This document shows positions 4,774 to 24,851 of a stretch of 25,907 bases of DNA, one piece after another. The translations under genes and the position numbers were made by a program. The stretch is from Thermoproteota archaeon (lineage in GTDB: Archaea > Korarchaeota > Korarchaeia > B14-G2). The notes under the pieces were generated by a model. That model ran no database searches. It had not been told where the DNA came from and saw only the letters and a program-made list of their open reading frames with translations. The DNA lies in NCBI GenBank assembly GCA_003661385.1, contig QMWA01000008.1:1-25907 (forward strand), given 5' to 3'. Within the stretch, counting starts at the first letter, position 1. Each line of letters starts with the position of its first letter.

Positions 4774-5496
4774 TTGGCCAAGATAGCTCGTGTACCAACG
4801 GGTATACCGAACTTAGACGGTTTAATTGACGGGGGGTTTCCTCGAGGTAGCGTTATACTGCTGACAGGGGATCCTGGAGTCGGAAAAACCATATTCGGCC
4901 TCCAGTACCTGTATGTCGGTGCCCTCGAGTACGGTGAGCCTGGGCTCTACCTAACAGCAGAGGAGTTCCCTGAAGAACTCAAGCTCACAGCCCAGCAGTT
5001 CAACTGGGACGTGATGTCTCTAGAGGAGAGCGGGAAATTCTACTTCCTTGACCTAGCAAGCGGGAGAATAAGGCTCCCCTCCAAGGCCCTCACAAGCAAG
5101 GCCCCATTTGACCCAGATACAGTCCTAGTTGAGCTACTTGATGCAGTAAGGAAGATGGGGATACAGAGAGTTGTTGTAGACTCTCTTCCAGGTGTGCTCC
5201 TGACCATAGATGATGCTAGGGTAGCAAGAAGATTTCTACACAGGATGATTTCAGCCATGAAAATCCTCAGGACTACTACTCTGCTCATATCTGAATCCTA
5301 TGACGGAGCCACCAACGCCTACCCACACCTTCTGAGCGGTGAGTTCCTTTCATCTGGCCTCATACGGATGTACTTTGAGAGAGAGGGAGAAAAGCTAGTC
5401 AGGAAGATGCTCATACAAAAAATGAGATATACACCACTGAACCTCAGGCCGTATACTGTTGAGATCACTAGCCACGGCCTTGTTGTCATAGTCTAG
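4774..5496 (+). CDS. KaiC-like single-domain RecA-superfamily ATPase
   Basis: This 240-residue protein is one KaiC/RadA-type ATPase domain. The N-terminus PTGIPNLDGLIDGGFPRGS is the usual lead-in, followed by Walker A GDPGVGKT (32-39), TAEEFPEEL as the KaiC-type catalytic glutamate region (61-69), and Walker B VVVDS (133-137). It ends with the KMRYTPLNLRPYTVEI segment found at the end of KaiC domains. Archaea carry many such single-domain proteins, and most have no proven function; roles in signalling, motility and DNA repair have been suggested. It starts with TTG behind its own TATA box and overlaps the convergent GcvT gene by 11 bases. A second KaiC-like gene lies at 16587-17369. A circadian role is not implied. 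Confidence 0.85.
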   Translation: MAKIARVPTGIPNLDGLIDGGFPRGSVILLTGDPGVGKTIFGLQYLYVGALEYGEPGLYLTAEEFPEELKLTAQQFNWDVMSLEESGKFYFLDLASGRIRLPSKALTSKAPFDPDTVLVELLDAVRKMGIQRVVVDSLPGVLLTIDDARVARRFLHRMISAMKILRTTTLLISESYDGATNAYPHLLSGEFLSSGLIRMYFEREGEKLVRKMLIQKMRYTPLNLRPYTVEITSHGLVVIV

Positions 5497-12576: not shown

Positions 12577-13454
12577 GAGTTGGGATAATAAGCCGTAGAG
12601 AGGATGCTTGGCATACAGCTGAGCTGTCTAAGGAGCTGAGGAGGAGGAGTGCTGAGCCCTTCGTTTTCGACTTCCCAGATATGGTGGCTAGGGTCGGCTT
12701 TGGAGCCCCGATATCAGCTAGGGGAGTAGACCTCCTGAGCGAGGTAGCTAGCATCATAGTCAGGCCTATCGGGAGGGGTTCTCTTGAGGAGATAATATTC
12801 TCGATGGATATGCTGCTGACACTGAGCAGAAGAGGGCTTCCAATAGTGAATGAGCCTAGGGCCATCGAGAAGTGTGTTGACAAGTACTATGCTCTTGTGA
12901 CCCTGGAGGAGGCTGGGCTCCCTGTGCCTAGGACTGTGGTGTGCAGGAGCGTTGAGAGAGCGCTGCGAGCTTTCGATGAGCTTGGTGGAGACGTCGTTGT
13001 TAAGCCTATATTCGGGAGCAGGGGAATGGGCATGACTAGGGTGTCTGATAGAGAGGTCGCATGGAGAGTGTTTTCTGCGCTAGCCTTCGGTAGGATGGTC
13101 CTGTACATCCAGGAGTTTGTGGAACATGGTAACAGAGACATCAGAGCGCTGGTCTTAGATGGGGAGGTTATTTCATCCATGTATAGGGTGGGAGGAAGCT
13201 GGAAGACGAACATAGCTCAGGGAGCTAGGCCTGTTACTGTGAGGCTGCCAGAGGAGCTCCAGGAGCTCGCTGTGAGGGCCTGTGAGGCTGTAGGCTGTAA
13301 GCTAGCTGGAGTGGACATGATCGAAGCTAAGGATGGGAGGGTGCTCATCGTTGAGGTGAATAGCCAGCCTGGATGGGAAGGGCTTCAGAGGGTGACGGAG
13401 TTCAGCATAGCTGGGAGGATAGCTGAGTACCTTATCAGGATTGGTAGACGCTAG
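12573..13454 (+). CDS. RimK-family ATP-grasp ligase
   Basis: This 293-residue protein has the ATP-grasp layout: an N-terminal preATP-grasp domain (MRVGIISRREDAWHTAEL), EKCVDKYYALVTLEEAGLPVP leading into the ATP-binding region, the VVKPIFGSRGMGM glycine-rich loop near 142-155, and VEVNSQPGWEGLQ (about 260-272) as the metal-binding E-x-N end. Relatives include RimK, LysX and MptN/CofF, which add glutamate or other amino acids to a carboxylate through an acyl-phosphate. The substrate here is unknown. MptN-like glutamylation of a pterin is one option; joining an amino acid to the uronic acid made by the coupled upstream enzyme is another, supported only by the ATGA overlap. It overlaps the convergent PUA gene by 4 bases. 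Confidence 0.82.
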   Translation: MRVGIISRREDAWHTAELSKELRRRSAEPFVFDFPDMVARVGFGAPISARGVDLLSEVASIIVRPIGRGSLEEIIFSMDMLLTLSRRGLPIVNEPRAIEKCVDKYYALVTLEEAGLPVPRTVVCRSVERALRAFDELGGDVVVKPIFGSRGMGMTRVSDREVAWRVFSALAFGRMVLYIQEFVEHGNRDIRALVLDGEVISSMYRVGGSWKTNIAQGARPVTVRLPEELQELAVRACEAVGCKLAGVDMIEAKDGRVLIVEVNSQPGWEGLQRVTEFSIAGRIAEYLIRIGRR

Positions 13455-13948
13455 AGCTTCGAGTAGAGCTTCCATAGCTTGTCTCCAACGTGATGTATGT
13501 TCTTTATGGCTCTCCCCTTGCTGCTCAGCTTTATCTCATCTGAGCTCATCAGAGCTATCCCAACTGCAATTATGCTACCGAGCTTCTCTTCAGCTACAGC
13601 TACGCCAGCTCCCTCCTTGAAGTCCCTGCTGAGCGAAACTATGCCAGGGACCATGACGTGAGCTCCCTTCGCGATATAGGGGACTGCACCGACGTCTACA
13701 GTCACCTTAGGGAGGTCTATGCTGAACTTCTCTAGGCCTGTTATAGCCGGTATAGGCTCTCCACCAGCTAATAGCAGCACTGGCGTCCTATCTACTAGAA
13801 GAACTTGTGCCTCCTCTGCGTGTGCTAGCTCAAACTCAGAGTCTCTTGCTGATGAGATGAAGTCTGCTAGCTCAGGCCACCTCTCTGAGGCTATGGCAGC
13901 TATCCTCCTGGCCTCCTTCCTCTTTATCCTGTGTCTACGCACACCCAA
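13451..13948 (-). CDS. PUA-domain RNA-binding protein, MCT-1/Tma20-like
   Basis: The 165-residue protein begins with a basic RRHRIKRKEARRIA stretch, continues with a short alpha/beta pre-PUA region (to about residue 75), and ends with a PUA domain at about 77-155, including VDVGAVPYIAKGAHVMVPGI and AVGIALMSSDEI. The order and size match archaeal relatives of eukaryotic MCT-1/Tma20 and the N-terminal part of eIF2D, which bind the small ribosomal subunit. A ribosome or RNA-associated function is therefore likely. The start is TTG at 13948; a GTG two codons later is also possible. It is convergent with the ATP-grasp gene and divergent from the SMC-like gene. Confidence 0.82.
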   Translation of the reverse strand: MGVRRHRIKRKEARRIAAIASERWPELADFISSARDSEFELAHAEEAQVLLVDRTPVLLLAGGEPIPAITGLEKFSIDLPKVTVDVGAVPYIAKGAHVMVPGIVSLSRDFKEGAGVAVAEEKLGSIIAVGIALMSSDEIKLSSKGRAIKNIHHVGDKLWKLYSKL

Positions 13949-14013: not shown

Positions 14014-15900
14014 GTGATACTAGAGGTCAGGCTAAGAGACTTCATGACATTCGAGGGAGATGTCTTAGTCCCCTTTAGGCCTGGGCTGAACATCATAGCT
14101 GGGCCAAATGGCGCTGGGAAGACCTCTATAGTCTCTGCTATACAGCTCTGCCTTGGCTCCCTGGCTAGAGAGAGGAAGTCTAGGATATCAGACTTCATCA
14201 GGAGGGGGAAGAGGGAGGCTGTGATCTCTACTGTCATAGACAACAGGCCTAGAGGAGGAAGGAGAGCCATACCATCAATCAACTCCGACAAGGTGGAGTT
14301 CACTAGAGTGATAATGCAGAGGGGGAGAGGATCTGAGTACTACGTGAACGGGGTGTATAGGCAGTACCGTGAGGTTAAGGCGATACTAGATGAGTCTATG
14401 ATCTCAGTTGACAACCCGCTTGTCGTCATGCCTCAGGGGAAGGTCAACGCGTGGATAGACTCTAAGCCTAGAGAGAGACTCCTGTACTTCGAGGAGCTTT
14501 TAGGGCTTGATAAGCTGCATGCTGCAATAGCAGCCATGGACAAGGGCGTCGAAGAGCTTGGTAGCAAGCTATCTGAGCTGGACGCCAAGCTTAAGGAGCT
14601 GAGGGCTGAGGTTGAAGGCAGGAGGAGGGAAGCTGAGCTCCTGGAGAGGAAGGAGGAGGCTCAGAGGAGGCTTGTAGAGCTGGAGAGGATGAAGATAGCT
14701 GCTGAGGCACTAGAACTTAAGGAGAGAATAGAGGAGGCCCTTAAGCAGGTACACGCGCTGGAGAGCGAGGCCTCTAGGGCTAGAGCTAAGATAGAGGAGA
14801 AGAGGGCGCTTGAGAGGGGGGCTCTCAGCAGGATCGAGCAGCTCACAATGGAGGAGGCAGCTGTCAGAGAGAAGCTTACTAGAGCTAGGGAGATGAGGCA
14901 AGCAGCTAGGAGGAGGATGGAGGAGGCTATAGGCCAGCTTTCAGACGCCCTCTCAAGCCTAGATGTGAGCTCGGCTAGGCTAGCGCTATCCAAGCTGCGA
15001 GAGGCTGTGAGAAGCTTCGAGAAGGCCGTTGACGAGGTTTTGTCAGGAGAGCTTAGGCTCAGAGAGATACAGGTAGAGAGGGAGATCAATGAGAGAAGCA
15101 TGCAGCAGGCCAAGGCCTCAGCTCAGAGGTGGGCTAGGAGAGTAGATGAGCTGGAGCAGCAGATAGGCGGCATTGAAGTAGAGGTGGCAGAGCTTAAAAG
15201 GCTTCTAGATGACAGAAGCAGAGTCGTCACTGAGGAGGAGATCTCAAGAGCTCCACCTGTGAGCGAGGTTGAAGCTGAGCTTGAGAGAATTCGAGGTGAA
15301 CTCGAAGCTCTGAAGTCTGTAGACCCTCTTGCAAGAGAGAAGCTTAGGGAAGCTACTTCAGTGCTTGAGAGGCTGACAGAGGAGAGGAGGAAGATAGCTG
15401 AGGAAAGGGATTCCATCCTAGAAAGGAGGAAGGAGGCAGCCAGCAGGTGGCGTAGCACGCTAGAGCAGGCAGTCCGCGACGTGAACACCCACTTCCAAGA
15501 GCTTATCAGCAAAGTTGGTGGAGAAGGGTATGTCGCACTGGAGGGAGCTGACCCGTATGAGGCTGGCCTCGAGATATATGTCGGCTTCGATGGCGCTCCA
15601 CCTGAGGCTGTGAGCAGCATGGCCCACTCCGGTGGCGAGAGGACGCTTTCTACAGTGGGGCTGCTGCTTGCAGTCCAGAAAATGAAGCCCTCCCCGTTCA
15701 GGATACTAGACGAGTTTGAGATACATCTGGACCCTGAGAACTTCGAGAGGGTTTCTCTCCTCCTCAAGGAGGCGTCCAGAGACACCCAGTACATAGTGGT
15801 CACGCCAGCTAGGCTGAGGATCCCGCCTCACGCGGATAGAGTAGTCTTCATATCGAAGTATGAGGGGGCTGTGAGTGTACAGTTCAGAGACAAAGGTTAG
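14014..15900 (+). CDS. Short SMC-family ATPase with SMC5-like heads
   Basis: The 628-residue protein has split ABC heads. The N-terminal head (1-165) has Walker A GPNGAGKT (30-37) and a Q-loop in VVMPQGKVNAWI, near-identical in plan to the LPQDKV of eukaryotic SMC5. The C-terminal head (500-628) has signature HSGGERT (538-544), Walker B FRILDEFE with D566/E567, D-loop LDPEN and an ending QYIVVTPARL that parallels the SMC5 QYFFITPKLL. Between them lie two coiled-coil arms of about 130-150 residues (about 168-305 and 343-495) joined by a roughly 35-residue helical linker. There is no hinge-sized domain and no Rad50 CxxC hook. Start is GTG. It overlaps the kleisin-like gene by 26 bases. The family is firm; the SMC5 subtype rests on motif likeness. 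Confidence 0.88.
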   Translation: MILEVRLRDFMTFEGDVLVPFRPGLNIIAGPNGAGKTSIVSAIQLCLGSLARERKSRISDFIRRGKREAVISTVIDNRPRGGRRAIPSINSDKVEFTRVIMQRGRGSEYYVNGVYRQYREVKAILDESMISVDNPLVVMPQGKVNAWIDSKPRERLLYFEELLGLDKLHAAIAAMDKGVEELGSKLSELDAKLKELRAEVEGRRREAELLERKEEAQRRLVELERMKIAAEALELKERIEEALKQVHALESEASRARAKIEEKRALERGALSRIEQLTMEEAAVREKLTRAREMRQAARRRMEEAIGQLSDALSSLDVSSARLALSKLREAVRSFEKAVDEVLSGELRLREIQVEREINERSMQQAKASAQRWARRVDELEQQIGGIEVEVAELKRLLDDRSRVVTEEEISRAPPVSEVEAELERIRGELEALKSVDPLAREKLREATSVLERLTEERRKIAEERDSILERRKEAASRWRSTLEQAVRDVNTHFQELISKVGGEGYVALEGADPYEAGLEIYVGFDGAPPEAVSSMAHSGGERTLSTVGLLLAVQKMKPSPFRILDEFEIHLDPENFERVSLLLKEASRDTQYIVVTPARLRIPPHADRVVFISKYEGAVSVQFRDKG

Positions 15901-16600
15901 AGCTTCCCTCAGGAGGGCTATACAGAGGTGTGAGATGGCTCTCCAAGGGAAGATAGATATAAGCGATGTGCCTACCAGCAGGTACCTTAGGCTTGCCGGG
16001 CAAGCTATTCAGATCGGCAGCCCCATGCTCCTCAGGCTTGTTGGAGAGCTTCTGCCGAAGGTCATCAGGATACTGCTAGCTAGAGTTGAGAGGAGCATTG
16101 CAGCTGCCTCAGCAGCACTCACCCCTGCAGGAGCCATAAGAGAGGGGCTTAAGCTGGCTAGCAGGATGAGGATAGCTGAGATTGTGGCTTTAGCCTGGCG
16201 GCCACTAGCTTCGGTTGACGGGCCCCTCAGCGCTGAGGTCATAGCCAAGCTAGCTAGAGCCTTCCTAGAGCAGCCGGATAGAAGACTGGCGCCCCCTGAG
16301 CTGCAAGCGCCTAGGCCTTCTACAGCTGAGCCCAGCAGCATGCTGTTCAGCGACGTAGTAGAGGCAGCCAGGGAAGCTGCTCAGCAGCTGGCTGGAAGGG
16401 AGGTAGACCTCAGCGAGCTAGCAAGCTCGTGGGAGGAGCTCCTCTCTATGCTTCAGGCTCTAGCTCACCTACAGCAGAAAGGGGAGATAGCTGTTGAGAA
16501 GAAGGGGAGGCTTCTGAGTGTTTCTCTAAGCCCACCTGAAAGAGGAGCTCACGTGTTTTGGGTTGATAGAGAGGAGTGGGGGGAGGATGAAGAGAGTTAA
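15875..16600 (+). CDS. Kleisin (ScpA-like) candidate
   Basis: The 241-residue protein carries segments resembling both ends of ScpA. Near the N-terminus, GKIDISDVPTSRYLRLA (25-41) parallels the ScpA motif K-I-D-I-x-D-I-P-I...Y-L, followed by a helical stretch rich in Leu and Arg (48-75). A flexible proline-rich linker (130-155) comes next. The C-terminal region (157-218), with EELLSMLQALAHLQQKGEI, matches the helix and wing of the ScpA winged helix that binds the SMC head. A kleisin bridges SMC heads and recruits KITE proteins. The GTG start follows GAGGGGG with a 6-base spacer and lies inside the SMC-like gene, as expected for an obligate partner. The assignment comes from motif reading, not a search. 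Confidence 0.68.
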   Translation: MYSSETKVRASLRRAIQRCEMALQGKIDISDVPTSRYLRLAGQAIQIGSPMLLRLVGELLPKVIRILLARVERSIAAASAALTPAGAIREGLKLASRMRIAEIVALAWRPLASVDGPLSAEVIAKLARAFLEQPDRRLAPPELQAPRPSTAEPSSMLFSDVVEAAREAAQQLAGREVDLSELASSWEELLSMLQALAHLQQKGEIAVEKKGRLLSVSLSPPERGAHVFWVDREEWGEDEES

Positions 16601-17369
16601 GACTGGAGTTGAGGGCATAGACCGCATGCTGTCAGGAGGGATCCCAAGAGGCTTCCTGGTGTGCGTGTCAGGTGAGCCTGGGACTGGGAAAACGGTGTTC
16701 TGCCTTCACTTTGCGTGGGCAGGCATAAGGAGCGGGGAGAAGGCCATATACGTGACTACAGAGGAGTCCAGCAGCTCCATCATAGAGCAAGCCTACCAGT
16801 TCAACATGGACTTCAAGCTGGCTGTAGACGGGGGGATGCTGATACTGATCGACACATTCGGGCGTGGTGAGTGGACTCTGTCAACGCTGAGTGTCGAGGA
16901 CCTCGTCAGGAAGATCGTTGAAGCGAAGAAGAGGCTAGGGCGTGGTGAAGCTAGGTGCATAATAGACTCGCTCTCAGCATTCTGGCTTGACAAGCCCGCA
17001 ATGGCCAGAAACTACTCGTACTACATAAAGAAGACCCTAGCTCCATGGAAGCTCACGACCCTCGCAGTCACGCAGTATGCAGTGACGACATCGCAGGCCT
17101 TCGGCTTCGGGCTGGAGCACGTCAGCGACGGGATAATTAGGTTCATGAGAGCTGTGAGGAGGGGGGTGCTTCAGAGGTATGTCTTGATTGAGAAGATGAG
17201 AAACACCCCTCACGACCTTAGGCTGCATAGAGTAGACATAGTTGACGGGGTGGGCATGGTTGTGACACCGCTGAAGGAGCCTCTTAGGAGAGAGGATGTA
17301 GCTCTCCCTAGGGAAGTGGCTGAGAGAATCATAGAGGCGAAAGCTAGAAGGGAAGCTGAGATCCCGTGA
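16587..17369 (+). CDS. KaiC-like RecA-superfamily ATPase in the SMC/kleisin operon
   Basis: The protein is 260 residues from the ATG at 16587. It has the KaiC lead-in VKTGVEGIDRMLSGGIPRG, Walker A GEPGTGKT (29-36), the TTEES catalytic-glutamate region (57-61), and Walker B CIIDS (124-128). A C-terminal KMRNTPHDLRLHRVDIVDG segment completes the domain. An in-frame TTG at 16563 would add eight residues, but the ATG fits the family start better and has GAGGAG ten bases upstream. It overlaps the end of the kleisin-like gene by 14 bases and the convergent primase-like gene by 26. The overlap implies joint translation with SMC and kleisin; whether it acts on the same DNA structures, like Rad55-type proteins, is inference. 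Confidence 0.85.
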   Translation: MKRVKTGVEGIDRMLSGGIPRGFLVCVSGEPGTGKTVFCLHFAWAGIRSGEKAIYVTTEESSSSIIEQAYQFNMDFKLAVDGGMLILIDTFGRGEWTLSTLSVEDLVRKIVEAKKRLGRGEARCIIDSLSAFWLDKPAMARNYSYYIKKTLAPWKLTTLAVTQYAVTTSQAFGFGLEHVSDGIIRFMRAVRRGVLQRYVLIEKMRNTPHDLRLHRVDIVDGVGMVVTPLKEPLRREDVALPREVAERIIEAKARREAEIP

Positions 17370-18240
17370 GCTCCCTGAGCGCCCTCTTTATCATCTCATC
17401 TAGCTTCGGGGTCTTCCTCCTTCTCCTCGCTTTGGGGTAGGGCATTCCCCCCACTACCTCATATGCCCTCTTAGCTAGGTGGTCTGCTTCACCCTCTACA
17501 TACCTTGTCTTCCACCTCCTATCATGCCTGTACTCCTTGGGTAGAGCCCAGCTCAGCTCAAAGCTGTCTATGTCATCTGGAGTAAAGCATATGCAGCAGA
17601 AGTCTAGTAGCCTGTGAAGTGAGAGCGGTGCTGTGAAGACTCTCTGAAGGTCTATCTTGTTCTCCACTCTGAGCCCTCTGGCCTCATATCTCTTAGATAA
17701 CTCGTGGATGCGGCTCTCTACCCTGAGCTTCACGTACTCTACTATCGAGTAGGCTATGTCAGCTGGGTGTATTTTCCGGAGGAGCTCACGTGAGAAGGCT
17801 AATGGGTTTAAGTGGACGTGTACTCCTCTACCAGACCACTTCAGGAACACCGACTTCACTACACCAAGCCTCTCCAGCTCATCGACTACGGCTCTGGCAG
17901 CCTCTAGTGTGGCCTTGTAGAGGCTTGGAGTGCTATCAATGTCCCATACTGGAGCTGACCTGGCTATGTTGCTGAGAGGGGCTGTGTCCTCTTCTCTAGC
18001 TAGAGCATGGTACTCGTGTATGGTAGCGTAGACTGACCTGGCATTAAGCTTCTCCACGAGCGTAGCTAGGTCCTCTGGGCTGGAGATGGTGATTGGGACC
18101 TTAGTTTTGCCTACTCGAAGGTATCTTGTAAACACCAGCCTGCTACCCAGGGTAGAGTGAACTGCAACCCAGCGGCGCCTACAGTAGCTGGAGATTTCCT
18201 CCGCAACGCTCCTCCTCTTGTAGTAGCTGATAGGATCCAA
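17344..18240 (-). CDS. Archaeo-eukaryotic primase (AEP) superfamily protein
   Basis: The 298-residue protein shows the three AEP motifs in order: VWDID with D100 and D102 (motif I, metal ligands), SGRGVHVH (136-143, motif II with the S-x-H nucleotide site), and KIDLQRVFTAPLSLHR, with D197 (motif III) followed by P-L-S-L-H as in PriS. The region between has the expected helices. It differs from a canonical PriS in its length (usually about 330-400 residues) and in lacking a clear four-Cys/His zinc stem; the cysteines present (C20 and the C-C-I-C cluster near 215) do not form one. It could be this lineage's PriS in divergent form, or a second AEP for repair. The start is TTG. No PriL is adjacent. 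Confidence 0.75.
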   Translation of the reverse strand: MDPISYYKRRSVAEEISSYCRRRWVAVHSTLGSRLVFTRYLRVGKTKVPITISSPEDLATLVEKLNARSVYATIHEYHALAREEDTAPLSNIARSAPVWDIDSTPSLYKATLEAARAVVDELERLGVVKSVFLKWSGRGVHVHLNPLAFSRELLRKIHPADIAYSIVEYVKLRVESRIHELSKRYEARGLRVENKIDLQRVFTAPLSLHRLLDFCCICFTPDDIDSFELSWALPKEYRHDRRWKTRYVEGEADHLAKRAYEVVGGMPYPKARRRRKTPKLDEMIKRALRELTGSQLPF

Positions 18241-18262
18241 GCTTCTAGTGGATGGCAGTCAC

Positions 18263-18271
18263 TTTCTTAAG
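18263..18271. promoter_or_regulatory. Palindromic CTTAAG-containing core between the primase-like and KITE-like genes
   Basis: TTTCTTAAG contains the palindrome CTTAAG (18266-18271). Its centre is about 28 bases from the TTG at 18240 on the left and about 24-27 bases from the TTG/GTG at 18292/18295 on the right. Both distances fit leaderless starts from one shared element. Confidence 0.42.
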
Positions 18272-18291
18272 CGTTTAGTGCTCCTATAGGT

Positions 18292-18807
18292 TTGGTGCCT
18301 GAGTTGGTTAGCAGCGATGCAAAGAGGCTTCTTCTCATGGTGCTCTATAGGTCTGGCAGAAAGCCTGGAGCTAGCATAGCAGAGCTTAGGAAGGAGTTTG
18401 GGGACAGGCTTGAGGAGCTAGTGGAGGAGCTGAACGAGAAGCTAGCTGAGCTTGGGCTTAGGCTTCACCTGCTTGAGGAGGAGGGGCTTGCTGTAATAGC
18501 TCCATCTGAGCCTGTAGGAGACATCAAGCTTTCACCGCTCGACTCGAATGCTGTAGCCTGCCTTGGAATACTAGTTGGGCTCTTTACGGCAGGTAGGGGA
18601 GTCGTTAAGAGAAGTGAGTTCTTAGAGGTTGCTTCGCGTAAGGTTGGAGAGGCTGAGGCCAAGATATGCCTTGGAGAGCTCGCTAGAGAAGGCTACGTGA
18701 AGGTGAAGGGGGATGAGATACAGCTCTCCTGGAGAGCTTTCTTCGAGCTCGATGTTGAGAAGCTAGCTGAGAGCCTGGCTAGGGAGGTGCTTAAGCTATC
18801 TGGGTAG
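18292..18807 (+). CDS. Tandem winged-helix protein, KITE (ScpB/Nse3-like) candidate
   Basis: The 171-residue protein looks like two winged helices in series. The first (8-70) contains DRLEELVEELNEKLAELGLR then LHLLEEEGLAVIAP, the same layout as the first ScpB winged helix. The second (84-150) reads LGILVGLFTAGRGVVKRSEF, then LGELAREGYVKVKGDEIQLSWRAF, which parallels the MAGE/Nse3 end in which a Y-L strand leads to a W-G-P-R-A-like turn. KITE proteins bind the kleisin linker of SMC complexes. The placement 1.7 kb from the kleisin-like gene supports this reading. Start is TTG at 18292, or GTG at 18295, at leaderless distance from the promoter. It is followed directly by Lhr. A plain winged-helix regulator is the alternative. 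Confidence 0.58.
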   Translation: MVPELVSSDAKRLLLMVLYRSGRKPGASIAELRKEFGDRLEELVEELNEKLAELGLRLHLLEEEGLAVIAPSEPVGDIKLSPLDSNAVACLGILVGLFTAGRGVVKRSEFLEVASRKVGEAEAKICLGELAREGYVKVKGDEIQLSWRAFFELDVEKLAESLAREVLKLSG

Positions 18808-21800
18808 TTGGTCTCCATGGGCGCCTTTAGCCTGCTGTGCAGAGAGCTCAGGGAGAAACTAGCTGAGGTTGGTGTCGAAAGGGAGACTGAGATCCAGGAG
18901 AAGGCTATACCGCTCATTCTTGAGGGGAGAAGTGTCCTGCTTATAGCCCCTGCAGGCTGGGGGAAGACAGAGGCAGCTGTCCTTCCTGTGCTCCACATGA
19001 TGCGTGAGGTCAAGGAGGCAGGCGTGAAGCTCCTCTATATAACCCCACTGAGGTCTCTTAACAGAGACCTCCTTAATAGAGTGGCTAGGTACGCTCATGC
19101 CCTGGGGTTTAGGGTAGGGGTTAGGCATGGTGATACCAGCTCAGGTGAGAGGGAAGCTCAAGCTAGGCATCCTCCAGATGTCTTGATAACCACCCCGGAG
19201 AGCCTTCAGGCCATCCTCCCAGGGAGGATGATGAGAGCTGCCTTAAGAGCTGTCAGGTGGGTTGTAGTAGATGAGGTGCATGAGTTCCTTGAGAGCAAGA
19301 GGGGAAGCCAGCTTGCAGTCCTCCTGGAGAGGGTCAGAGAGGTCTGTGGAGGCTTCCAGGTTATTGGGCTCTCTGCGACGATAGGGTCCCCGGAGTCTGT
19401 AGCTGAGTTCCTAGCTGGAGGAGGAGCTAAACCTGAGGTCGTATCCCTTGACATAGGTAAAAGGGTTGAAATCAGAGTTGAGTACCATGAGCCATCTGGG
19501 GAGGACGCTAGCAGTGCTGAGAAGGTTGGCGTCAACCCATGGCTTCTAGCTAGAGCTAGGAGGATAGTTGAGCTAGCTAAGGCCAGTGGCAGGGTGCTTG
19601 TTTTCACCAACACGAGGTCTACAGCTGAGCTCCTCTCGCGTGTGATAGCTGAGCTCTCTCCAGACGTGGAGTTTGGAACCCACCACAGCTCTCTCTCCAG
19701 AGATATTAGAGTCGAAGTTGAGTCCAGCTTGAAGTCTGGGTTCCTGCTTGGAGTAGTATGCACGTCATCTCTTCAGCTTGGCATAGACATAGGTGAGCTT
19801 GAGCTGGTAGTCCAGTATGGCTCACCTAGGACTGTAACCAACCTGCTTCAGAGAGTTGGTAGAGCTGGACATAGAGCTTGGAAGAAGTCTAGTGGAGTTG
19901 TGCTAGCTGAGACTCCCCTCGACGTAGCTGAAAGCCTAGCTATAGTTAGGCTAGCTAAGCGTGGCTGGCTTGAGAAGCCTAGGATTCCGGAGAAGCCTCT
20001 CGATGTGCTAGCTGTCCAGCTAGCGGGTTTGACGCTCGACGGAAGGCGTAGCCTGAGGGAGGTGTATGATGTCGTCAGGAGGGCATACCCGTATAGAAAG
20101 CTGACAGTGGACGAGCTTAAGGAGGTAGTTAAGGCGCTAGGGTGGAGTGAGCAGCATGGTAGACTTGTGGCTAAGAGGGGGGTATGGAGATACTACTATG
20201 AGAACCTGTCTGTGATAAGTGAGAGAGAGGAGGTGGAGGTGGTAGATGATAGGGGGCAGATCGTAGGGTACATGGATCCGCGGTTCGTGGCGCTCTACCT
20301 CAGTGAAGGGGAGGCTGTGGTGTTTCAGGGCAAGGTCTGGATTGTGGCTGAGATCTCTCGAGACAAGGTGAAGCTGGCGCCCTCTAGAGAGCACATGGGG
20401 GAGATACCGTGGTGGGAGGGAGAAACCATACCTGTGCCTAAGGAGGTCGCCGATGAAGTTTTCGAGGTGCTTAGAGAGGCTTCTGAGGAGCCTGGAGACT
20501 ACGCTAGGGCAGCTGAGAGCCTTGCTAGGTACGAGGCTGTAGACTACCAGGCAGCTCTATCCCTAATTAAGCTGGCGAGAGGCACCTTACAGGCTTTAGG
20601 AGTGCTTCCCAGCAGAGACATCATGGTAGCAGAGAAGGTCGGTGACTCGATAGCGTTCTACTATCCTCTGGGGAGGAGGGGCGCTGAGGCTCTTGGGAGA
20701 GCTGCAGCATTTAAGGCTGCATCGCTGGTAGGTAGGCCTGTTGGGCTCAGGATCAGCCCATATGGGTTTGTCATTGAGGGAGTTGAGGAGCTTTCCCCCA
20801 GGGAGGCTTTACCCTCTCCAGGAGAGTTTGAGGAAGCCCTCTCCAGCAGCTTGAGGTATACTCCTCTGCTTAAGCTTGCTGTCAGCGAGGTGGCAGGTAG
20901 GCTTGGAGCTAGGGAGGAGGCTGAGAAGCTCCTTGATCTCAGCCCGGAGCAGCTTGCTGCAGCCATAGATGGAACTGCACTGCTTAAGCAGGCTATAGGA
21001 GACATCCAGCACAAGTACTTAGATGCTGGGGTTGCTAAAGAGGTCCTGGAGAGGATCCATGATGGAAGCATCAGGCTTAGAGTTGCTGAGAGAGACGAGC
21101 CTACTCCACTTTTCACTGAGGTATCCTCTAGGTTCCCAGAGGTCGTCAGGCCGAGTTCTATCAGCTCACTGCCAGCCTCTGGCAGCTTAAGAGATAGGGT
21201 TGTCGCTGAGCTATCTAGGTCTCCTCTCTCAGCCTATGAGCTCTCTAGGAGGCTTGGCGCCCCGCTTAAGGACGTGCTTGATCTTCTGGTTCAGCTTAAG
21301 GATGAAGGAGCCGTTAGAGACGTCCTCGTGCCAGATGCTATGGCTAGGATTTGGGTTCTGAGGAAGAAGGGCATTGAAAGCGCCAGGGTGGCTGTATCAG
21401 AGCTCATTGAGCTGAGGTCTAAGATTAGAGCTGACAGGATAAGCTCTGTTAGCAGCCTGATCCGGGCGCTGGACATGCTAGGGGCGGTTTCTCCCAGAAG
21501 GCTTCTTAAGATGACAGGTAGCAGCAGTGAGGACTTTAGAGAAGCCCTTCAGAGAGCACTCGAGAGCAGGAGAGCAGTCTTAGTCCATACTTTAGCTGGG
21601 GGGCAGCTCATTCTCTTAAGCGAGCAGTTTAGCTCGTATGTGATGGGAGTTAAGCCATTTAAGATGAGTAAGCTGAGTGAGGTTACTGCTGAGCTCCTTA
21701 AGATCATGGGCGCCGCTACAGCTGAGGAGCTTGCTAGGAGGCTTGGGGAAAGCACCAGGTCTGTTAGAAGGAGCTTAGCTGAGCTTCAGGCTCTTGGGCA

Positions 21801-22086
21801 TGCGGTGTGCTATGGCAGGGAGTGGAAGTACAGGAGGAGAGTAGAGAGCTGGGAGTGGAGGCCTCATGGTCTTCTGCTGTTGCTCTTGAAGAGCGGCCCT
21901 AAGACCCTCGGGTACTTGGCTAGGGTATGCAATGCTAGCAGAGATGAGGTTCTTGAGGCTCTTGAGAGCACACGTCAGGTTGTTAAGCTTATTGTCAGAG
22001 GTAGAGGGGTGAGGAGGGTTCTCTACTGCTTGAGATCCCACTTCAATGCTATTCTTGAGGCTCGAGAGCGCAGCAGGCCTCGATGA
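18808..22086 (+). CDS. lhr: Lhr-type superfamily 2 DNA helicase with extra C-terminal winged helices
   Basis: The 1092-residue protein has a complete Lhr helicase core: Walker A APAGWGKTEAA, motif II DEVH in VVVDEVHEFLESKRG, SATIGSP (motif III), LVFTNTRSTAEL, and the QRVGRAGHR motif VI. The Lhr winged-helix and beta-rich regions follow to about residue 770. Lhr unwinds DNA and DNA:RNA forks and is linked to repair and replication restart. Beyond the core, residues from about 790 hold helical repeats that look like at least three more winged helices (about 794-850, 950-1010, 1018-1075). The annotated start is the TTG right after the previous stop; the ATG at 18817 (residue 4) is as likely. It overlaps the convergent radical SAM gene by 38 bases. 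Confidence 0.9.
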   Translation: MVSMGAFSLLCRELREKLAEVGVERETEIQEKAIPLILEGRSVLLIAPAGWGKTEAAVLPVLHMMREVKEAGVKLLYITPLRSLNRDLLNRVARYAHALGFRVGVRHGDTSSGEREAQARHPPDVLITTPESLQAILPGRMMRAALRAVRWVVVDEVHEFLESKRGSQLAVLLERVREVCGGFQVIGLSATIGSPESVAEFLAGGGAKPEVVSLDIGKRVEIRVEYHEPSGEDASSAEKVGVNPWLLARARRIVELAKASGRVLVFTNTRSTAELLSRVIAELSPDVEFGTHHSSLSRDIRVEVESSLKSGFLLGVVCTSSLQLGIDIGELELVVQYGSPRTVTNLLQRVGRAGHRAWKKSSGVVLAETPLDVAESLAIVRLAKRGWLEKPRIPEKPLDVLAVQLAGLTLDGRRSLREVYDVVRRAYPYRKLTVDELKEVVKALGWSEQHGRLVAKRGVWRYYYENLSVISEREEVEVVDDRGQIVGYMDPRFVALYLSEGEAVVFQGKVWIVAEISRDKVKLAPSREHMGEIPWWEGETIPVPKEVADEVFEVLREASEEPGDYARAAESLARYEAVDYQAALSLIKLARGTLQALGVLPSRDIMVAEKVGDSIAFYYPLGRRGAEALGRAAAFKAASLVGRPVGLRISPYGFVIEGVEELSPREALPSPGEFEEALSSSLRYTPLLKLAVSEVAGRLGAREEAEKLLDLSPEQLAAAIDGTALLKQAIGDIQHKYLDAGVAKEVLERIHDGSIRLRVAERDEPTPLFTEVSSRFPEVVRPSSISSLPASGSLRDRVVAELSRSPLSAYELSRRLGAPLKDVLDLLVQLKDEGAVRDVLVPDAMARIWVLRKKGIESARVAVSELIELRSKIRADRISSVSSLIRALDMLGAVSPRRLLKMTGSSSEDFREALQRALESRRAVLVHTLAGGQLILLSEQFSSYVMGVKPFKMSKLSEVTAELLKIMGAATAEELARRLGESTRSVRRSLAELQALGHAVCYGREWKYRRRVESWEWRPHGLLLLLLKSGPKTLGYLARVCNASRDEVLEALESTRQVVKLIVRGRGVRRVLYCLRSHFNAILEARERSRPR

Positions 22087-23011
22087 CGCTGTAGCTCCAC
22101 TTCACTGCAGGCTGGACTATCCCGTCTACCCCCAGCTTGACTGCAGCTTGGTCTACTGCCTTCCTGTACTGCCCTCCTGGCCTCATGCAGCCTAGTACCA
22201 GCCTTTTATCAGGGAACATGAGCCTTGCTGCCAGCATCACCTTAGCTACCTTGTCTACTGGCGGAGGAGAAGCCTCCTTCATTGGTATTCTTCTGCTGGT
22301 GACTAGAGCTAGTAGAACTAGCGTCTGGAAGCTTCTTCTTGAGAGAATTCTGAGAGCATTGACCTCCCCCTTGAGCCTCCCGTAGTACAGCCCTATACAG
22401 ATGTGGGGGGCGTATGGTACGCCTGCCTTCTCCAGGTTTTCTAGGGTCTTTTCGTAGTCTCCGTATGTTATTGATAGGTTTGTCAGCTCTTTGATCGCTG
22501 TGTTGCTTGCTATGAGATCTACGCTGGCTACGTCTACTCTGGCTTTAGCTATCTGCTTAGCTTCCTGGTAGCTGAGAACTCCCGTGTGTATGTTGAATGA
22601 GAGATCTAGCTCTTCTCTGAGCCTCTTTATTACTGGGAGGAACCTGAGGATTGGAACCTTGCCCTCTCTAGTATACCCTCCACTTATCAAGAAGCCCTTA
22701 GCTCCCCTCTCAGCTAACTTTGTGCATACCTCCCAGAGCCTCTCTGGCGACTTAGCTGGATGCATGTGCCTTAGGAAGTAGCCTCCACAGTACTTGCATC
22801 CAGCCTGGCACCATGTGCCTGTGACTGATATCGGCGGGAACTTCGGGTTGGGGAGCTTTACTGGGTAGAATGCATCTACCCTCTTGGGCTGTGCTGCTAG
22901 GGCATAGAGCTCCTCTATGCTGGTTTTGGAGCATATGATGGCTGACGCGGTCTTTAGCGATATGCAGCCCGTAGCCTGGATTTCTCTCCTAGCTTCATCT
23001 AGTAGGGGCAT
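22049..23011 (-). CDS. Radical SAM protein, LipS2/COG1856-like
   Basis: The protein is 320 residues from the ATG at 23011. The radical SAM cluster motif is C-x3-C-x2-C in SVTGTWCQAGCKYCGG (C68, C72, C75), followed by FLRHMHP and the GFLISGGYTREG segment, then NIHTGVLS. This series matches the archaeal COG1856 group, which includes LipS2, one of two radical SAM proteins that together insert sulfur to make lipoate. That fits the lipoate-dependent glycine cleavage T protein elsewhere in the window, but LipS1 is not seen. An upstream TTG at 23032 gives seven more residues; I prefer the ATG because the TATA element TTATAA is centred 26-27 bases before it. Confidence 0.72.
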   Translation of the reverse strand: MPLLDEARREIQATGCISLKTASAIICSKTSIEELYALAAQPKRVDAFYPVKLPNPKFPPISVTGTWCQAGCKYCGGYFLRHMHPAKSPERLWEVCTKLAERGAKGFLISGGYTREGKVPILRFLPVIKRLREELDLSFNIHTGVLSYQEAKQIAKARVDVASVDLIASNTAIKELTNLSITYGDYEKTLENLEKAGVPYAPHICIGLYYGRLKGEVNALRILSRRSFQTLVLLALVTSRRIPMKEASPPPVDKVAKVMLAARLMFPDKRLVLGCMRPGGQYRKAVDQAAVKLGVDGIVQPAVKWSYSVIEACCALEPQE

Positions 23012-23034
23012 TGCTACCGTGTAGCTAGTCAACC

Positions 23035-23072: not shown

Positions 23073-24851
23073 TTGAAGTTCTCAGTAGTGGCCGAGTACT
23101 ACTCAAAGCTTGAGAAGACCACTAAGAGGCTTGAAATGACTGCTCTCTTAACCGACCTCTTCCTTAAGACCCCTCCTAGCGAGCTTCCTAAAGTAGTATA
23201 CCTGACTCAAGGTAAGCTGTACCCTGATTTCGTCGGCATTGAGATTGGGGTAGCTGAGAAGCTCTACCTTAGAGCGCTGTCTCTAGCTTCTGGTGTGAGT
23301 GTTAAGGAGCTTGATGAGCAGCTTAAGCAGGCTGGCGATGTAGGCGTGCTGACTGAGAGGGTGCTGTCTAAGAAGCCTAGCAGCTCTCTAGCAGCGTTCA
23401 TGGGGCTTGCTGAGGAGGAGCTCACCGTCAGCGAGGTGTATGGGACCTTAGATAAGATAGCTAAGGTCTCAGGCGAGGGAGCTCAAGAGACCAAGATAAG
23501 GTACATTGCTGGGCTCTTGAAGAAGGCTAGCCCTCTTGAAGGGAGGTACATCGCCAGGATAATCCTGGGTAAGCTTAGGCTAGGGATAGCTGACATGACT
23601 ATCCTCGATGCTCTCGCTGAAGCCTTTGCTGGAGGAAGGGAGAACAGGCCTATACTGGAGCACGCTTACAACATATCAAGCGACTTAGGGCTTATAGCTG
23701 AGGTTGTAGCTGAAAGGGGAGTTGAGGGGCTCAAGGGGATCAAGCCTAAGGTAGGTGTCCCCATAAGGCCTATGCTAGCTGAGAGACTTCCAACTGCTGA
23801 GGAGATCTTAGAGAGGATGGGGGGGAAGTGCATAGCAGAGTACAAGTATGATGGAGAGAGGATGCAGATACACAAGAGTGGAGACAGGGTTGTGATATTT
23901 TCTAGGAGGCTTGAGAACATAACCCACCACTACCCTGATGTCGTTGAGATGAGCAGGCGGCACATTAAGGCTAGGGAGGCAATAGTTGATGGCGAGTGTG
24001 TGGCTATAAACCTAGATACTGGCGAGATGCTGCCTTTCCAGGAGCTGATGCATAGAAGAAGGAAGTATGGCATCGAAAAGGCTATGGAAGAGTACCCGAC
24101 TGCAGTCTTCCTCTTCGACTGCCTCTATGTAGATGGAAGAAGCTTGCTTAACCTGCCTCTACTGGAGCGTAGGAGGGCTTTAAAGGAGATAGTGGATGAA
24201 AGCGATAGGTTTAGGCTAAGTGAGCACATAATAGCTAGCAGCATAGAGGAGCTTGAGGAGATGTTTGAGCGAGCCATAGCAGATGGATGCGAGGGGCTCA
24301 TAGCCAAGTCTATAGCAGAAGAATCCGTTTACCAGGCTGGTGCAAGAGGCTTCCTGTGGATAAAGTGGAAGAGGTCTTATCAGTCTAAGATGGTAGAGCC
24401 TGTTGACTTAGTCATAGTAGGAGCTTTCATGGGGCGAGGTAAGAGAGCGGGAACCTATGGTGCGCTCCTCCTGGCGGCTTATGACAGCGAGAAAGACCAG
24501 TTTGTGACTGTAGCCAAGTGTGGAACCGGCTTCACAGACGAGGAGCTATTCAGCCTGCCTAAGGTGCTTGAGCCCTATAAGAGGGATAGCAAGCATCCTA
24601 GAGTCTACTCTAAGCTGGAGGCGGATGTCTGGTTCACACCAGCTAAGGTTATAGAGGTTATTGGAGACGAGATAACTCTCTCACCAGTCCACACCTGTGG
24701 GCTAGATGTGGTCAGGAGAGGAGCTGGGCTAGCAATAAGGTTCCCTAGGTTTACGGGGAGGTGGCGAGAGGACAAGGGGCCTGAAGACGCTACTACTGTG
24801 AAGGAGATAGTGGAGATGTATAGGAGCCAGCTTAAGAAGGTCACTGAGTAG
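23073..24851 (+). CDS. lig: ATP-dependent DNA ligase
   Basis: The 592-residue protein is a full-length archaeal replicative ligase. The N-terminal DNA-binding domain takes up about 1-220 (GKLRLGIADMTILDALAEAF is conserved there). The adenylation domain carries motif I, AEYKYDGERMQIH, with nucleophile K258, and VDGECVAI (motif III) and EGLIAKS (motif IV) follow, with WIKWKRSY as motif V. The OB-fold domain ends the protein. It seals nicks during Okazaki fragment joining and repair, in the family of eukaryotic Lig1. The start is TTG; there is no Shine-Dalgarno, consistent with a very short leader from the TTATAA element. Confidence 0.96.
   Translation: MKFSVVAEYYSKLEKTTKRLEMTALLTDLFLKTPPSELPKVVYLTQGKLYPDFVGIEIGVAEKLYLRALSLASGVSVKELDEQLKQAGDVGVLTERVLSKKPSSSLAAFMGLAEEELTVSEVYGTLDKIAKVSGEGAQETKIRYIAGLLKKASPLEGRYIARIILGKLRLGIADMTILDALAEAFAGGRENRPILEHAYNISSDLGLIAEVVAERGVEGLKGIKPKVGVPIRPMLAERLPTAEEILERMGGKCIAEYKYDGERMQIHKSGDRVVIFSRRLENITHHYPDVVEMSRRHIKAREAIVDGECVAINLDTGEMLPFQELMHRRRKYGIEKAMEEYPTAVFLFDCLYVDGRSLLNLPLLERRRALKEIVDESDRFRLSEHIIASSIEELEEMFERAIADGCEGLIAKSIAEESVYQAGARGFLWIKWKRSYQSKMVEPVDLVIVGAFMGRGKRAGTYGALLLAAYDSEKDQFVTVAKCGTGFTDEELFSLPKVLEPYKRDSKHPRVYSKLEADVWFTPAKVIEVIGDEITLSPVHTCGLDVVRRGAGLAIRFPRFTGRWREDKGPEDATTVKEIVEMYRSQLKKVTE

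Follow-up and report, generated by a model that had tools for sequence, protein, structure and literature searches.

Three neighboring genes of an archaeal genome probably encode a minimal SMC-kleisin-KITE complex with affinity to the SMC5/6 complex of eukaryotes. They are carried by contig QMWA01000008.1 (GenBank assembly GCA_003661385.1) of a Thermoproteota archaeon placed in the Korarchaeota (Korarchaeia; B14-G2), of which positions 1 to 25,907 of the forward strand were analyzed; this stretch of 25,907 nucleotides is referred to below as the window. Each of the three proteins is homologous to its class of SMC-complex subunit, and the three genes form a conserved operon in related genomes. 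The three subunit families all lean toward SMC5/6, single links being modest. The case for SMC5/6 rests on the agreement of the three subunits in this respect, the canonical archaeal control leaning elsewhere. We describe the encoded assembly as a minimal SMC5/6-like core and do not class it as an SMC5/6 complex since it lacks a hinge, a second KITE and a RING. SMC5/6-related archaeal SMCs were already known; the Nse4-like and Nse1/Nse3-like partners and the operon itself appear to be new.

The three subunits and their operon

The original prediction, made from the nucleotide sequence, had proposed six open reading frames encoding an SMC, a kleisin, a KaiC, an AEP protein, a KITE and an Lhr helicase, and all six lie at the proposed positions (Table 1). 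It had also assigned the SMC, the kleisin and the KITE to the three classes of one SMC complex. This assignment is upheld, the kleisin and the KITE having passed profile and structure tests that could have spoken against them.

The ATPase motifs of the window SMC are intact, with Walker A (GPNGAGKT) at amino acid 30, the signature (SGGER) at amino acid 539, and Walker B and the D-loop around amino acid 566. Its coiled coil is short and so is its mid-region, which is not conserved in the family. Pfam reported no SMC_hinge match for the window SMC, nor was this domain among the matches listed for 22 family members, and a CxxC zinc hook is ruled out by the single cysteine of the whole protein.

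The window kleisin aligned over its full length with the kleisin family of the relatives, reaching an hhalign score of 36.8. Shuffled sequences scored 13.7 on average and never above 22.1 in 200 trials, and none of the other window proteins exceeded 20.0. Its family assignment is settled because this score exceeds those of all shuffles. In the AlphaFold 2 (AF2) model (pLDDT 75), a helical N-terminal domain is connected by a disordered linker to a C-terminal winged helix. The window KITE was found with a leave-one-out profile built from relatives only (61 bits, E 1e-17), and its AF2 model (pLDDT 77) consists of a tandem winged helix without extra domain. The first 13 Foldseek rows obtained with this model are all MAGE/Nse1/Nse3, JetABC, MukE or ScpAB entries, and the top VIA row is an Nse1-Nse3-Nse4 entry (Z 11.2, root-mean-square deviation 4.0, 157 aligned).

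Comparison of gene neighborhoods and co-occurrence, the check proposed with the original prediction, established that the three subunit genes form a conserved operon in relatives. In 22 genomes they follow one another directly in the same orientation, and in most cases their ends overlap; relatives with this arrangement occur in families f2, f4, f19, f34 and f110. Strong KITE matches are present in 26 of 297 archaeal genomes (families f1, f2, f3, f4, f5, f19, f34 and f110), and 24 of these 26 have strong kleisin matches. At least three named public contigs of metagenome-assembled genomes, labelled Thermofilales RSNS8, Thaumarchaeota UBA160 and Bathyarchaeota DRTY-6_2_bin_115, carry the operon; they come from a contig scan whose matches were crowded by bacterial SMCs. 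In the sister genome G021, whose assembly has a completeness of 66%, no kleisin was seen beside the SMC.

The genome of the window possesses a second, diverged SMC-kleisin-KITE set on contig C25 (L106:2-2621), in which the SMC is interrupted by the contig end and the kleisin carries an additional N-terminal winged helix. A further SMC, likewise interrupted by a contig end, is encoded by contig C149. With two diverged sets, this genome may have a two-SMC, two-KITE form of the complex. The N-terminal winged helix of the C25 kleisin resembles Csa3/CARF-type regulators (PADLOC).

Affinity to SMC5/6

The SMC had been proposed to be SMC5-like. This description stands for the C-lobe, whose family profile matched human SMC5 best (133 bits), followed by archaeal SMC (110), yeast Smc5 (108), human Smc6 (78) and SMC1-4 (at most 64); it does not extend to the N-lobe, which does not discriminate. 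In a tree of SMC heads, the mini-SMC family and SMC5 split from canonical SMC and SMC2 with support 97/81. The best tree nests SMC5 inside the mini-SMC family (100/92), but monophyly of the family is not rejected (AU test, p 0.063).

The kleisin family profile, compared with the PDB, matched EID3 (3.9e-5), the human paralog of Nse4, and then Nse4 (9e-4) and ScpA (0.15), and 15 of 22 family members matched Pfam Nse4_C. The control profile of canonical archaeal ScpA found ScpA, then Rad21 (1e-6) and, weakly, condensin, and no Nse4. ScpA (PF02616) was not among the matches listed for the 22 kleisins, and neither PF02616 nor PF04079 has a match in the genome of the window. The KITE family profile matched MAGE (0.0014) and Nse1 (0.19). 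Pfam matches of the 24 individual KITE members were to MAGE for five, to Nse1 for three and to ScpB for one (E 0.055); among the matches listed for canonical ScpB members, neither MAGE nor Nse1 appeared. Profile-profile comparison of the KITE family with canonical ScpB gave 55%.

Several observations weigh against an SMC5/6 affinity or against the assignments on which it is built. The operon encodes no hinge, no RING and no second KITE. The SMC N-lobe profile has no preference for SMC5 (SMC2 110-111 bits, archaeal SMC 106, Smc5 104), and the profile of the whole SMC protein scores about the same with archaeal SMC (228.4 bits) as with Smc5 (229.3). The head tree sampled two SMC5 rows and SMC2 by its N-lobe only, and left SMC6 out. 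Sequence comparison links the KITE to Nse1/Nse3 weakly (E 0.001 to 0.2). The window kleisin is too divergent for hmmsearch, in which the leave-one-out profile of the relatives misses it, and Pfam gave no informative match for it; the top Foldseek row of its model, which is Nse4 (7tve_G), is weak as well (E 0.019). Finally, 1691 base pairs (bp) separate SMC-kleisin from KITE in the window, placing the KITE outside the same operon in this genome.

Proposed mechanism and comparison with known systems

Because the SMC has neither a hinge match nor a zinc hook, its dimerization must rest on the heads together with kleisin and KITE, or on the tip of the coiled coil. In the mechanism we propose, a pair of hinge-less SMC molecules would be joined at their ATP-bound heads. 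The kleisin would bridge these heads, its helical N-domain contacting the neck of the first and its winged helix the second, and a KITE dimer seated on the kleisin linker would clamp DNA together with the heads. Opening, translocation or loop growth would then be powered by ATP hydrolysis, the arms being short at about 150 residues each. We infer complex assembly, stoichiometry and DNA clamping; by analogy with SMC5/6, the complex may act on intermediates of recombination or replication, and it might also be directed against foreign DNA.

With the eukaryotic SMC5/6 core (Smc5, Smc6, Nse4, Nse1 and Nse3), the archaeal proteins share an SMC5-like C-lobe carrying the motifs P-x-R-x-x-D-E and Q-Y-x-x-I/V-T-P, a kleisin whose C-terminal region is Nse4-like and a KITE fold similar to Nse1/Nse3 (MAGE). 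They differ from it by an SMC devoid of hinge and about half as long, and by an operon with a single gene each for SMC and KITE, the KITE being devoid of RING. Canonical Smc-ScpA-ScpB is likewise composed of SMC, kleisin and KITE, and archaeal ScpA is recognizably related to the kleisin described here; the canonical complex differs by its hinge, its ScpA and ScpB Pfam families and its affinity to SMC1-4 and Rad21 instead of SMC5 and Nse4. Unusually short SMCs from the canonical side of the head tree, 727-768 amino acids long and adjoining ScpA-like and ScpB genes, are encoded at L122:4496-7837 and L123:4975-8313. Wadjet JetABC and MukBEF have in common with the window system the KITE fold and the three-class plan, whereas the window SMC is unlike JetC beyond one stretch scoring 35 bits and no nuclease gene was seen in the operon, in which no profile search for JetD was made. 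The archaea-specific SMC-related proteins (ASRP), or coalescins, are also short archaeal ATPases of the SMC superfamily, of about 70 kDa. The window SMC reaches 92 bits against the NCBIfam ASRP cut-off of 300 and has no zinc hook, a feature that coalescin appears to possess (PMC9764264).

Archaeal SMCs qualified as 'SMC5/6-related' have been published (Yoshinaga and Inagaki 2021, as cited in PMC9389158), and archaeal SMCs were reported to group with SMC5/6 with support of 100%/0.99 (PMC9389158). The published proteins, which may belong to the window family, share with it the grouping with SMC5/6; the searchable text contains no mention of kleisin. A literature search, to which the 2021 paper on SMC5/6-related SMCs was external, found no description of Nse4-like or Nse1/Nse3-like partners, or of an SMC-kleisin-KITE operon, in archaea. 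Canonical archaeal Smc complexes have been argued to lack a kite subunit (PMC7055376), which makes a conserved KITE in an archaeal operon more notable.

If the affinity proposed here is correct, an older version of SMC5/6 may exist in archaea. Among eukaryotic SMC complexes, SMC5/6 is the least well understood, its origin included. The chances appear evenly balanced that a core made of an SMC5-type ATPase, an Nse4-type kleisin and an Nse1/Nse3-type KITE already existed as an archaeal three-gene operon beside canonical Smc-ScpA-ScpB, in which case cohesin/condensin and SMC5/6 would already have separated as whole complexes before eukaryotes. A small complex with SMC5-, Nse4- and Nse1/Nse3-like parts from one archaeal operon would be a simple object for biochemical and structural work and would allow a direct test of how old the SMC5/6 branch is. 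An SMC that lacks a hinge but retains a kleisin and a KITE would also help to tell which components of an SMC machine DNA clamping or loop extrusion requires.

Alternative explanations and neighboring genes

The three subunit classes are identical to those of canonical archaeal Smc-ScpA-ScpB, and the window system could accordingly be a shortened, fast-evolving version of it whose likeness to SMC5/6 results from divergence through long-branch attraction. The kleisin family indeed aligns over its length with archaeal ScpA (profile-profile probability 97.6%), the SMC N-lobe does not tell the two origins apart, and canonical-type SMCs of 727-768 amino acids occur in these lineages. However, the head tree places the latter with canonical SMCs, the kleisin profiles diverge toward Nse4 in one case and Rad21 in the other, and genome G042 has both canonical SMC(727)-ScpA-ScpB genes and the SMC5/6-like operon, so that such a derivation seems unlikely to us. 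A defense system directed against plasmids or phages, of the Wadjet (JetABCD), MukBEF/MksBEFG or Lamassu type, would equally combine SMC, kleisin and KITE, as JetABC does; JetABC entries rank near the top of the Foldseek list obtained with the KITE model, and the PADLOC models mad3 and LmuB match the SMC with 129 and 65 bits. The JetC match has only 35 bits and covers amino acids 141-403, JetA and JetB matched none of the kleisins and KITEs tested, the operon has no recurrent fourth gene in its direction (a profile search for JetD was not part of this comparison) and the distribution tracks families, all of which renders a defense system of these types improbable.

A different type of explanation extends the complex to all six genes, in the order SMC-kleisin-KaiC/AEP/KITE-Lhr, acting jointly at stalled forks. 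The original prediction had envisaged such an interleaved replication-repair module, and the window genes are tightly packed with overlapping ends. This order is not conserved, as the KITE of relatives directly follows the kleisin. KaiC (TIGR03881) and the divergent AEP form an adjacent conserved pair in six related genomes (L311-L316), at other loci, and this pair does not adjoin the SMC operon in the relatives' loci examined; in the window, where the AEP gene is on the opposite strand, the pair splits KITE from SMC-kleisin. KaiC-AEP is a separate conserved pair, located within the SMC locus in the lineage of the window. The Lhr gene begins immediately 3' of the KITE stop codon in the window, and in relatives an Lhr gene adjoins the operon or lies within 2 kb of it at 12 loci, about half of them. 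It is always convergent there, unlike the window Lhr, which is co-directional with KITE, and families f19, f110 and most of f34 have no Lhr gene next to the operon. The genome of the window has three Lhr-type genes; of the 12 Lhr proteins encoded near the operon, 9 give a better score with the C100 paralog than with the window Lhr. The Lhr tree leaves the window Lhr unplaced, and it is not clearly their ortholog. The replication-repair module is best read, from synteny, as a juxtaposition in this lineage because the gene order is not conserved, KaiC and AEP are paired elsewhere and the link to Lhr is uncertain. Joint action of the six genes is therefore very improbable, and the whole six-gene module was rejected on synteny in relatives. 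The suggestion that the locus represents a relative of the SMC5/6 ancestor is retained for the SMC-kleisin-KITE core, whose three families all lean toward SMC5/6, and abandoned for the order involving KaiC, AEP and Lhr.

Taken individually, the KaiC and Lhr proteins were correctly recognized, plainly so from the TIGR03881 score and the Lhr domain set. The AEP identity holds at family level, with matches to DNA_primase_S (3.9e-4), LigD Prim-Pol (0.0013) and solved PriS (0.005).

Table 1. Genes of the SMC locus and other genes of the window.
Feature	Position	Strand	Basis or remark
Mini SMC ATPase, 628 amino acids	14014-15900	+	Pfam SMC_N 3.4e-38
Divergent kleisin, 241 amino acids	15875-16600	+	Profile alignment (hhalign) and AF2 model; 26-bp overlap with SMC gene
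KaiC-domain ATPase	16563-17369	+	TIGR03881, 334 bits, above model cut-off
Divergent AEP (primase small-subunit-like)	17344-18240	-	DxD and SGRGxH motifs; family-level profile matches
KITE, tandem winged-helix subunit, 171 amino acids	18292-18807	+	Relatives' profile, AF2 model, Foldseek, VIA
Lhr-type superfamily 2 helicase, 1092 amino acids	18808-22086	+	DEAD, Helicase_C, WH_Lhr, DEAD_assoc
Protein of repeated helix-turn-helix matches, 394 amino acids	3502-4686		HTH_32, HTH_Tnp_Tc3_2, Clr5
Second KaiC-domain ATPase	4774-5496		
PUA-domain protein	13451-13948		Divergent from SMC gene
LipS1-type lipoyl synthase	22049-23032		Between Lhr and ligase genes
ATP-dependent DNA ligase	23073-24851		About 1 kb downstream of Lhr gene

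KaiC and AEP possibly constitute a two-gene module of their own. The further window genes listed in Table 1 include a second KaiC-domain ATPase, a protein with repeated helix-turn-helix matches and, beyond Lhr, a lipoyl synthase and a DNA ligase.

Upstream of the SMC gene and divergent from it, most relatives carry a gene encoding a protein of about 234 amino acids (L116:8305-9009, L109:10867-11586, L037:2276-2980 and others), for which no informative Pfam or PDB match was obtained. This gene is present in 35 of the 297 genomes, every one in operon-carrying families, and is absent from the genome of the window. It is replaced by the divergent gene of a PUA-domain protein in the window and in G021 (L031:11469-11990).

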